Assembly (NCBI RefSeq): GCF_019880225.1
Contig: NZ_CP082284.1
Location: forward strand, 744,001 to 808,000
Direction: 5' to 3'
DNA length: 64,000 nucleotides
Origin: Halobaculum rubrum
Lineage (GTDB): Archaea > Halobacteriota > Halobacteria > Halobacteriales > Haloferacaceae
Shown here: piece after piece, positions 12,727 to 16,307 of the stretch
Layout: each line of letters begins with the position of its first letter
How positions within the stretch are numbered: the stretch's first letter is position 1
Program-made: the position numbers and the translations under genes
The notes under the pieces: model-generated
Databases searched by the model: none
Told to the model about the DNA's origin: nothing
What the model saw: the letters and a program-made list of their open reading frames with translations, nothing else

Positions 12727-13653
12727 CTACTGCGCTGCCGTCCGCCGCACCAGCGCCGCCAGATCCGCGTCGAACCCCTCGCGGTACTTCTCGGCGGCGT
12801 CGATCGTCGGCCGGGCGTTCGTCTCCGAGACGACGAGTCGACCGTCCGACTCCAGCAGGTCGACCCCGAGCAGCGGGACCCCCAGCGTTTCGGCCGCGCG
12901 CTCGGCGAGTCGCCGTGCCGATTCCGGGAGGTCGACGCCCTCGGCGACGGCGCCCCGGTGGACGTTGTGCTTCCACTTCCCCTCGGCCAGCGCCGCCTCG
13001 GGGAGTCTGCGCTCCACGGCGCCGGCGTAGGCGCCGTCCAGCACCATGACCCGGTAGTCGGTCGCGGCGGGGAGGAACTCCTGCAGCAGGTACGACTTGT
13101 CGCCGGTCGCGCGGTAATCGTGGACGAGGTCGAGGTAGTCCGTCACGCCGAGCAGCGAGTCCGGATCGGTCACCTTCGCGACGCCGACGCCGCGCGTCGT
13201 CGAGTTGGGCTTCACGACCAGCGGGTAGCCGATCTCGTCGGCCGCGGCCAGCACGGCCTCGTCGTCGGCGGGGTTCGAGACCAGCCGCGTCGCCGGAACG
13301 GGGAGCCCCGCGTCCGCCAGCGTCGCGAGCGCGCCGGCCTTGTTGCGGGAAGCCAGCACCGCGTCCTTGCCGTTCACCCACGGCACCCCGAGGCGGGCGT
13401 CGACGACCGCCCCCTCCATCAGCCGCGACGGGTACACCCAGCCGGCGTCGAAGCCGTCGAACTCCGTCTCGGCTTCCGCGTCGGCGGCGGTTTCGGGTTC
13501 GCCGCCGCCGGCGACCCGGAGCACGCGCTCGTCCGGCCGGACGTGATCGACGGCGATGCCGTGCGGTGCGAGGCGCTCGCGCAGTCGCTCGAACGTCTCC
13601 GCGCGCGTGGTCACCGCGAGCCGGAGGTCGGGGTGGGACGGCGCCGTCGACAT
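12727..13653 (-). CDS. ATP-grasp ligase, RimK-like family
   Basis: 308 residues. ATP-grasp enzymes of the RimK type join a carboxylate to an amine through an acyl phosphate. Seen are DAVLASRNKAGALATLADAGLP (lysine-containing pre-grasp helix), YPLVVKPNSTTRGVGVAKV (ATP lid), LLQEFLPAATDYRVMVLDG (adenine/ATP contacts) and LGVDLLESDGRLVVSETNARP (metal-binding E and N). This matches the MptN/CofF/LysX/RimK superfamily; the substrate cannot be assigned. An N-terminal domain (1-95) is diverged, with an acidic loop. It stands alone, and its upstream region faces the divergent TFS-like gene. Confidence 0.85.
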   Translation of the reverse strand: MSTAPSHPDLRLAVTTRAETFERLRERLAPHGIAVDHVRPDERVLRVAGGGEPETAADAEAETEFDGFDAGWVYPSRLMEGAVVDARLGVPWVNGKDAVLASRNKAGALATLADAGLPVPATRLVSNPADDEAVLAAADEIGYPLVVKPNSTTRGVGVAKVTDPDSLLGVTDYLDLVHDYRATGDKSYLLQEFLPAATDYRVMVLDGAYAGAVERRLPEAALAEGKWKHNVHRGAVAEGVDLPESARRLAERAAETLGVPLLGVDLLESDGRLVVSETNARPTIDAAEKYREGFDADLAALVRRTAAQ

Positions 13654-13910
13654 CGGTCTGTCGGACTCGACGGTCGCCCGGCGTATAGCGGTTCGGCTCG
13701 CGGTACGGGTGACCGACACGACGCCGAAACCCGTGTATGTGGTGTTGTACCCGGAGAACTGTCGGAACACCCACCTCACGACTCCGCGCGGTGGCTTCCG
13801 AGAGCCAGAGGAATCCGAGACGATGCTCGAGGACTACGGGGTGGAATTGAGCCCGCCGATACCTCGGTACAGTCAACATAGACAATTGCCAGACATCCGC
13901 GACCGATCGG

Positions 13911-13924
13911 GAATTAATACATAT
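13911..13924 (+). promoter_or_regulatory. AT-rich TATA box of the TFS-like gene
   Basis: GAATTAATACATAT lies about 30 nt before the ATG at 13952, in an otherwise GC-rich background. It fits a strong haloarchaeal TATA box and a leaderless transcript. Confidence 0.65.
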
Positions 13925-13951
13925 GCCCACAACCGTGTATCCCTCCGTCAT

Positions 13952-14269
13952 ATGCAATTCTGTAACGAGTGTGATTCGATGATGCACACGGAGGGCGACA
14001 CGTGGGTGTGTCGCTCCTGTGGGACCGAGGAGCCGCGGGACTCGCAAGCGGAATCGGCGATGACGACCCGGGATGGACAGCGGGACGACGGGGCACCCGC
14101 CGTGGCCGACGCGACACGGGGCTCCGCCGAGACGATGCAAGAGCCCTGTCCGGCGGACGACTGCGAGGGCGAGCGGGCCCATTACGAGATGATACCGAAG
14201 CCGGGCGGCTCCTACGAGGTCCGGCTGTTCACCTGTGTCGAGTGCGGCCACAAGTGGCGCGAATCCTGA
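13952..14269 (+). CDS. TFS/TFIIS-like transcription factor lacking the catalytic acidic pair
   Basis: 105 residues with the two zinc ribbons of archaeal transcription factor S: C4, C7, C20, C23 at the N-terminus and C66, C71, C95, C98 at the C-terminus, ending HKWRES. In canonical TFS the tip of the C-terminal ribbon carries an Asp-Glu pair (RSADE) that enters the polymerase funnel and stimulates RNA cleavage. Here the aligned loop reads IPKPGGSYEVRL, with Gly-Gly at the DE position. Cleavage stimulation is therefore unlikely. By analogy with TFS4 of Sulfolobus it may inhibit or modulate RNA polymerase. It borders an AT-richer patch with a methyltransferase. Confidence 0.85.
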   Translation: MQFCNECDSMMHTEGDTWVCRSCGTEEPRDSQAESAMTTRDGQRDDGAPAVADATRGSAETMQEPCPADDCEGERAHYEMIPKPGGSYEVRLFTCVECGHKWRES

Positions 14270-14352
14270 CGGCGCATCTCGCGACCCCCGGCGCGTACAT
14301 CCGCACAGACCGCCACACCGGACTCTCAACTCCCGTCGAACTCGATCGTCTG

Positions 14353-15072
14353 TTACACAGGTCTCGCGACGTAGTAGAGTCCCCTCTCGAAGAACCGGAG
14401 GGGTGAGTCTCGTTTCCCAATCACGGCCTCCAGTCGGAACCCTGCCCCACGGAGCTGACGCCACTGGTGAAGGGGGTTCGAAAAATAGGTCTCGAGGGCG
14501 ATGCGGTCGCGCCTGTCTACTTTATATCTGCGCGAGCTCCGGTCTCTGTTCTCCGGGGCCAGATAGAACTTCCGAAGGAACCCCCAGTCACTGACGAGAG
14601 CGGGCAGTGTGTACCACGTATTGTGACTGCTGAACGCGAAGGTTCCGTTGGGGTTCAGGACGCGCCAGATCTCGGAGAGCGCTCGTAAGCGCTCGGTGGC
14701 CGGGTACGGGTAGTCCAGACCGTTATACGAGAACAACACATTGTCGAATGAGTTGTCAGCAAAGGGGAGCCGAGTCGCATCCGCTATCCCCAGCGCCGCA
14801 TCTCCGGTCAGAGATCTGGCCGCTTCCACCATTGGTTCGCTTACGTCTACCGCGACGACATCGAGGCCGCCGTCCACGAGTTGCACCGTGGTCCGACCGG
14901 CCCCACACCCCAGGTCCAGCACGGATTCCCCCGCAGAGAAGTACTTTTCAGCGATCTCCCGCTCTTGTGGAAAGAGCCCATCTTCGAGTTGCCCCTCAGC
15001 CCGGGCGATCTTTTCGGTCGTTGAGAACGCATCCACGTTTCCCCCGTGATCAGTCTGTGAGTGGTCGTCCAT
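14353..15072 (-). CDS. Class I SAM-dependent methyltransferase
   Basis: 239 residues. SAM-binding motif I is VLDLGCGAGRTT (residues 51-62), followed by VDVSEPMVEAAR (motif II) and ADATRLPFADNSFDNVLFSYNGLDY (motif III/post-I region), as in UbiE/type-11 methyltransferases. The substrate-binding C-terminal part (NTWYTLPALVSDWGFLRKFYL) is not diagnostic. The gene is less GC-rich than its neighbours and includes codons unusual for the window, which suggests horizontal acquisition. ATG at 15072 is used; an ATG ten codons upstream (15102) is also possible. Confidence 0.8.
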   Translation of the reverse strand: MDDHSQTDHGGNVDAFSTTEKIARAEGQLEDGLFPQEREIAEKYFSAGESVLDLGCGAGRTTVQLVDGGLDVVAVDVSEPMVEAARSLTGDAALGIADATRLPFADNSFDNVLFSYNGLDYPYPATERLRALSEIWRVLNPNGTFAFSSHNTWYTLPALVSDWGFLRKFYLAPENRDRSSRRYKVDRRDRIALETYFSNPLHQWRQLRGAGFRLEAVIGKRDSPLRFFERGLYYVARPV

Positions 15073-15653
15073 GCATTTTGGGAGTCGGGCGTTCGGAGGC
15101 ATCGCTCAGTTCGCTCGCCCGCAGAGCTTCGAGACGATCCGTCCATCCAGCGTCTTCGTAGTCAGCGTCGGGCAGGAGTGCAACTCCGGTTCAGACTTCG
15201 CGTTATACGAGGACAGGCGGGAATTATTCGCCCCGGCCTACCGGGGTCGGCTCGATTCTTCTGTATTCTCTGTGGTGCTGTCGGCCCCGCACCATCGGGT
15301 GAGGTGAAGAGATCCCCTCGAATCATCTTCACTCTGGGGGAGTTGGTCGCTCTCACTTTACTACAGACAGCATACTGTTCTGGAATGTGGGGCGGTTGCT
15401 GAGTAGACCCTCTGTATCTCGAACCGAGTTTTTCATACTGTATCGATAGGATTCTACTCCGGATCGGTAGCGGATCAGCTGTACGTACCGATCCCTACCG
15501 AACCCATCCTCAGTCGAAGTTCTCGGCAGATCCGTTCAGTCCCGCCCTTGCCGCGACGCGCGCTGTGCTCCTGACTCGCTCGGCTACGACACGCCCCCAC
15601 ACGCGCATCCGGAGAAACGAGGCTTCTTACGGCGCGACGCGGTATCGAGGGGT
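15073..15653. other. AT-richer 580-bp gap without a convincing gene
   Basis: No ORF here has haloarchaeal codon bias or a recognisable product; overlapping reading frames of 60-137 codons on both strands look like shadows. The GC content falls and T-runs appear (GAGTTTTTCATACTGT near 15425). Together with the adjacent methyltransferase it looks like foreign or decayed DNA. A TATA-like CTTCTTACGG near 15620-15630 probably serves the gene at 15654. Confidence 0.5.
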
Positions 15654-16307
15654 ATGAGCGATTCCGACGTTCCCTCGCAGGTGCCCGTGGAGTGCCCGGG
15701 CTGTGGCGAGGAGACACCCCACGAGGTGCTGAAGCCCGGCGGCCACGCCACGGTGCAGTGTACGGTCTGCGGCCACACCCACAAGGTCGAGGTGCCGGAG
15801 CCGACGACCATCGACGTGGACGTCGTCGTCTCCCAGGACGGCGAGTCGTACACCGCGACGCTCGATGGCGAGCCCGACCAGCAGGTCGAGGTCGGCGACG
15901 AGTTCATCGTCGAGACCGAGGCGGCGATCCAGCAGGTACGCGTCACCTCGATCGAGCTGTCGGGCGACCGTCGCGTCGAGGAGTCCGACCTCGACCACGC
16001 CGCGACCGTCTGGACACGCGTCGTCGACAACGTCGCCGTCAACATCACCGTCCATCCCAAGGACGGCCGTCGCGACGAGACCCGGAGCCTGAAGGTGTAC
16101 GTCCCCGGCGACTACGAGTTCACGGTCGGCGAGACGGTCTCGTTCGGCGACGACGAGATCGAGATCGAGGGCGTCCAGGTTCGCGACGAGTCCGCCGACA
16201 CCTACCGCCACGAGAAGTTCGACCACGAGGGCGACATGGTGTACGCGAAGGACGTGAAGCGCGTGTACGCCCGCGACACGAAGACGGCCGCCTGGTCGGC
16301 CTGGTAA
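15654..16307 (+). CDS. HVO_0476-type zinc-ribbon protein
   Basis: 217 residues. An N-terminal zinc ribbon uses CPGC (14-17) and CTVC (36-39), followed by an acidic region with a beta-rich domain (VDVVVSQDGESYTATLDGE) and a long C-terminal domain containing HPKDGRRDETRSLKVYVPGDYEF and DTYRHEKFDHEGDMVYAKDVKRVY. This pattern corresponds to the conserved haloarchaeal HVO_0476 family. Function is unknown; a zinc ribbon plus OB/SH3-like beta domain suggests nucleic-acid or RNP binding. The ATG at 15654 is supported by an AT-rich box about 30 nt upstream. Confidence 0.8.
   Translation: MSDSDVPSQVPVECPGCGEETPHEVLKPGGHATVQCTVCGHTHKVEVPEPTTIDVDVVVSQDGESYTATLDGEPDQQVEVGDEFIVETEAAIQQVRVTSIELSGDRRVEESDLDHAATVWTRVVDNVAVNITVHPKDGRRDETRSLKVYVPGDYEFTVGETVSFGDDEIEIEGVQVRDESADTYRHEKFDHEGDMVYAKDVKRVYARDTKTAAWSAW

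Follow-up and report, generated by a model that had tools for sequence, protein, structure and literature searches.

A horizontally mobile TFS paralogue of haloarchaea with a rebuilt hairpin tip that is predicted not to support transcript cleavage

The question raised by this locus is what a TFS-like protein could do for its host once the residues that promote transcript cleavage are gone. The protein is encoded at 13952-14269 on the forward strand of the window, the stretch of 64,000 nucleotides of Halobaculum rubrum that we analyzed, and its translation (MQFCNECDSMMHTEG...MIPKPGGSYEVRLFTCVECGHKWRES) is 105 aa long. The initial annotation had likened it to TFS4 of Sulfolobus, a virus-induced inhibitor of RNA polymerase. 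We call it and its close relatives C-type. Databases name them just 'RNA polymerase subunit M' or 'RPA12/RPB9/RPC11 family', and among the papers reached by our literature searches there was no study of them. The multiplication of TFS genes in Halobacteria has already been noted (PMC5715097), and among the papers found none studied a haloarchaeal TFS paralogue. Our reading, to which we give a probability of about one half, is that the C-type is a haloarchaea-specific, horizontally mobile, non-cleaving subfamily of TFS that arose from a second haloarchaeal paralogue, the B-type, and acts as a natural cleavage-dead factor.

The C-type has the fold class of a TFS/RPB9-type double zinc ribbon. As in archaeal TFS/TFS1 (TIGR01384; PF02150 and PF01096), two Cys4 ribbons are joined by a linker in a protein of about 105 aa with a conserved N-terminal ribbon and a C..CGH.WR end. 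The claim that both ribbons are intact holds, since translation places cysteines at C4, C7, C20 and C23 and at C66, C71, C95 and C98. The third cysteine pair is C-X4-C and not C-X2-C, a spacing that is common to the C-type and to the B-type of Halorarius, its closest relatives that carry the catalytic Asp-Glu (DE) pair. The N-terminal ribbon (residues 1-30, 13952-14041) matches Pfam Zn_ribbon_RPB9 with 39.1 bits against a cut-off of 25.2 and is conserved with TFS1 and the B-type. The C-terminal ribbon (residues 64-105, 14141-14266) gives only a weak match to Zn_ribbon_TFIIS, with 15.1 bits against a cut-off of 21. In the NCBIfam ranking TFS is nearest but scores 40.8 against a cut-off of 64.75 bits (TIGR01384), followed by TFS4 (NF047723) with 30.1 against 120 bits. 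Thus the C-type differs from TFS1 in falling below the TIGR01384 and C-ribbon Pfam cut-offs and in lacking the DE pair, as well as in being accessory and mobile. The AlphaFold model has two ribbons and a C-terminal hairpin with strands 75-81 and 90-95, and its confidence is moderate at the tip (pLDDT block 67). Fold searches and profile searches of the PDB returned RPC10/RPC11, RPA12, RPB9 and TFS4 (7oqy_Y), all of which bind the funnel/jaw of the polymerase.

The same genome carries three TFS-like genes, and the window copy is the only one without DE. Canonical TFS1 (C1:1759651; 30% identity to the window protein) has the tip GAADEPP, KQTGAADEPPT in the alignment, and the B-type (C1:2090862; 48% identity) has RAADESE, KQIRAADESET in the alignment. 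The tip of the window protein, P82-F93 at 14195-14230 (PKPGGSYEVRLF), reads PKPGG(SYE), with G86 and S87 at the positions of the catalytic D and E. PKPGG had been described correctly, but the canonical tip it was set against, RSADE, is not the one found in this genome. The alignment shows no DE pair shifted elsewhere in the tip, where the sole acidic residue is E89, opposite a non-catalytic Glu of the B-type. The earlier expectation that the usual cleavage stimulation is lost is what one would predict for this protein, because DE is absent and the biochemistry of TFS and TFIIS is well established. The length of the hairpin is close to normal. There are 23 residues between the cysteine pairs of the C-ribbon, compared to 24 in TFS1 and 25 in the B-type, and the hairpin is therefore expected to extend to roughly the same depth as in TFS. 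The protein is acidic overall, and its C-ribbon has a net charge of -4 and one tip lysine, K83.

At a threshold of E<=1e-45, 130 of 391 haloarchaeal species genomes and 48 of 86 genera carry the C-type, and the DNA pattern of the tip was absent from the non-haloarchaeal genomes sampled in the phylum. Among 89 distinct coding sequences P82-S87 does not vary, which puts the loss of the DE pair far beyond chance, and Y88, E89, L92 and F93 each vary once. K83 is the single tip lysine in all 89, and the tip codons vary synonymously. No other part of the protein is as constrained as the tip, whose amino-acid entropy is 0.03 bits and whose dN/dS is 0.013 compared to 0.165 for the N-ribbon, 0.31 for the linker and 0.23 for the whole gene, and therefore the tip has a selected job.

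The C-type descends from TFS genes by way of the B-type. When a tree of 40 proteins is rooted on TFS1, it forms one clade (100/100) that is nested in the B-type on a long stem branch of 0.74, and the B proteins from Halorarius and from a related bin group with it (100/98). In two Halorarius species (L105:6001-6727 and L106:6001-6736) a C gene precedes a B gene by about 80-90 bp, with both read in the same direction. This arrangement is likely left over from the duplication that gave rise to the subfamily, and the position of C directly upstream of B suggests, as the simplest account, that the gene was first duplicated in tandem and its tip was rebuilt afterwards. We infer that the B-type ancestor was duplicated in an organism like Halorarius; the cleavage tip would then have been rebuilt as PKPGGSYEVRLF, after which horizontal transfer spread the gene together with its promoter.

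The signs of transfer are clearest when the two paralogues are compared. In 20 genomes with both genes the pairwise distances of C and B are uncorrelated (rho 0.05, p 0.49). Where both genes are present, identity between genera is higher for C than for B, both for DNA (84.9% and 73.9%) and at fourfold sites (74% and 55%). The C tree intermingles families, with 27 changes of family label against a minimum of 7, and some pairs that cross families are well supported, among them Halorubrum aquaticum and Halosimplex aquaticum (100/84); many of its inner branches are unsupported, so individual transfers should not be over-read. Copies lie on plasmids of at least ten genera. No gene family recurs next to the C-type across loci, and no conserved operon partner was found. 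Because the distances are unlike those of B, the families are intermixed, common neighbors are missing, plasmids carry copies and the site in the window is empty in relatives, the comparisons indicate that the C-type has passed from species to species on its own, as one gene.

That site is an insert of about 1.9 kb at 13705-15585 (edges +-15 nt), between the genes for a RimK-like ATP-grasp protein and a CPxCG zinc-finger protein. It holds the C-type gene and a class I SAM methyltransferase (14353-15072, reverse strand; Pfam Methyltransf_25/11), and it is missing at the site in 10 of 10 Halobaculum relatives, in which the two flanking genes adjoin or are split by other short sequence. The interval (13614-15654 in the window) is a variable site whose short cargo differs among Halobaculum species. 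GC content is 62-63% at the locus compared to about 69% around it. A search of 166 other genomes of the family at E<=1e-60 returned no match to the methyltransferase, and this absence marks it as foreign. The proposal of a horizontally acquired patch is thus right, but the methyltransferase is confined to this genome and does not accompany the C-type at other loci. We rejected a defined mobile element, as the edges of the insert showed neither terminal nor target-site repeats and flank conservation ends at varying points.

What travels with the gene is a variable amount of flanking DNA, about 50-130 bp upstream, including the promoter, and 10-370 bp downstream. In the window, comparison with copies elsewhere places the upstream segment that travels across genera at 13857-13951, and at 14270-14307 a short downstream segment that copies in other genera also share, both on the forward strand. 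The upstream segment contains a TATA-like box (AATACATATG / ATACATATG) at about 13917-13925 (+), roughly 30 nt before the ATG, so the TATA box that had been noted is real and is the gene's own. Judged from the putative start site, the C-type mRNA would be nearly leaderless. At six loci a second promoter type (AAACCTATATTTGTCAC-like) replaces the common one. A palindrome, TCGGA-N14-TCCGA, spans the BRE/TATA region from about -46 to -22 relative to the ATG. With up to one mismatch allowed it is present in 62 of 93 copies, and in these relatives it is possibly an operator. For the window copy, where the palindrome is degenerate with 3 mismatches, we do not claim one. Five loci have up to about 370 bp of noncoding DNA 3' of the C-type that is conserved across families. 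The flanks, including this long downstream segment, had no Rfam match to a structured RNA. At four loci in different genera a short MITE-like insert that begins with TACGGT(T/C)... directly follows the C-type stop codon, with approximate insertion sites.

Taken as a cleavage-dead factor, the C-type would dock on the polymerase as TFS does, with its N-terminal ribbon on the jaw/lobe and its C-terminal ribbon in the NTP-entry funnel. The near-full-length hairpin would enter the pore but offer no carboxylates for the second Mg2+. It could then compete with TFS1 and the B-type and displace TFS from the funnel, which would leave backtracked complexes unrescued and slow transcription when the C-type is expressed. 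Polymerase binding, pore entry, inhibition and conditional expression are all steps that we infer. The nearest precedents are mutants: TFS1-AA makes the polymerase less processive, and mutants of the TFIIS-AA kind and of GreA act as dominant negatives (PMC5715097). Like TFS1-AA and TFIIS-AA, the C-type keeps the full scaffold and a near-full-length hairpin without catalytic carboxylates; it differs in being natural and in having a conserved proline/glycine-rich tip in place of alanines. A bacterial parallel is Gfh1, an inhibiting Gre homologue, which is likewise a secondary-channel factor made into a regulator after loss of cleavage, although its fold is unrelated and its tip is acidic. Given its nearly invariant tip without the acidic pair and its spread between species, the C-type is probably a transferable brake on transcription that evolved naturally. 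That the gene is accessory, has a strong promoter of its own, moves by transfer and is lost in places agrees with a factor of conditional use and perhaps some cost. The almost invariant tip may, however, serve a specific contact with an effect other than blocking.

Such a contact is central to the main rival, a helpful role like that of RPB9, which we consider doubtful but worth keeping in mind. The C-type would then associate with the polymerase, stably or transiently, leave it unblocked and under some condition modulate pausing, termination, fidelity or repair, with PKPGG as a specific positive contact. RPB9 also has two ribbons and lost cleavage while keeping its fold (PMC5715097). RPC10/RPC11, RPA12 and RPB9 are the best sequence and fold matches, the C-type shares their fold without the cleavage residues, and its near-invariant tip also speaks for this role. 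The distribution of the gene argues the other way. RPB9 is a stable subunit of every RNAPII, whereas the C-type is an accessory, horizontally acquired gene in only a third of species, often plasmid-borne and truncated in some genomes, which is unlike a constitutive subunit, and canonical TFS1 and the B-type are still in the genome.

It is unlikely that the C-type is a true functional equivalent of TFS4 (NF047723; PDB 7oqy chain Y), which would make it an allosteric inhibitor, induced by viruses, whose binding opens the DNA channel wider and destabilizes initiation and elongation complexes. The domain plan is the same, both are DE-less paralogues encoded beside a canonical TFS1, the C-type has its own promoter, and TFS4 is among the profile and fold matches. 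The features that make TFS4 an inhibitor are nevertheless missing. In TFS4 the hairpin is shortened and carries 2-3 lysines; the tip swap replaced 15 TFS1 residues by 7, TFS4 depends on three lysines, and its Lys-to-Ala mutant does not inhibit (PMC5715097). Its positively charged C-ribbon binds acidic patches of the funnel without reaching the active site (PMC8448823). The C-type has one tip lysine instead of a cluster, its hairpin is shorter by 1-2 residues and not by about 8, and its C-ribbon is acidic. Together with the low NF047723 score, these differences weaken the initial comparison, and identification of the window protein as TFS4 is not supported. It is because of the acidic ribbon, the single lysine and the near-full-length hairpin that we favor a dead cleavage factor, for which TFS1-AA and TFIIS-AA are the nearer precedent. 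Since the C-type arose independently, from within the haloarchaeal B-type, any equivalence would be convergent at best.

Still less likely is that the second zinc ribbon was redirected away from the host polymerase pore to another partner, such as a nucleic acid or a plasmid or virus polymerase factor. A tip unlike any known TFS tip and the long branch at the origin of the C-type would agree with this, but the N-ribbon motif that TFS uses to dock is common to the C-type, TFS1 and the B-type. Cleavage promoted through the single tip acid is very improbable: E89 is kept in 88 of 89 copies, but its counterpart in the DE-bearing B-type is non-catalytic, the tip has no Asp and published DE mutants are dead. 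Truncated copies in some genomes might suggest a decaying pseudogene that lost its active site, which is ruled out by the constraint on the tip in particular and by intact genes in 130 species.

As for the truncated copies, an unannotated one comprising residues 1-52 is found on pNRC100 and pNRC200 of Halobacterium salinarum NRC-1 (NC_002608.1:274921-275076; NC_010369.1:8090-8245). In one relative (L014:1381-1671, genome G001) the 3' half of the C-type continues in frame into the first part of a nucleotide-sugar-dehydrogenase-like ORF, which could be a deletion or an assembly chimera.

A role in the response to viruses is possible but unsupported. We scanned about half of the loci with heuristic gene calling, and the roughly 127 nearest genes around 38 loci showed no defense association, with scattered PADLOC hits that were largely TnpB-like Cas12 models; the neighbors had diverse housekeeping Pfams. 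A viral origin was rejected, as no relative was confirmed in IMG/VR or phage records. Such a gene goes unmentioned in the main text on the transcriptome of Haloferax gibbonsii infected with HFTV1 (PMC12542753). More tentatively, the C-type could be a self-promoting, single-gene cassette for a global RNA polymerase brake that moves between genera and confers a switchable dormancy or anti-virus response. Such a brake would have evolved independently of Sulfolobus TFS4 and would work through its new proline-glycine tip in place of lysines.

The nearly invariant non-catalytic tip of the C-type in 130 species shows that loss of DE with redesign of the tip is a repeated, selected route, and that a non-catalytic TFS factor can be a transferable accessory gene. 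The organisms are culturable and some Haloferax species carry the C-type, which allows a direct test of whether dead cleavage factors act as physiological brakes.
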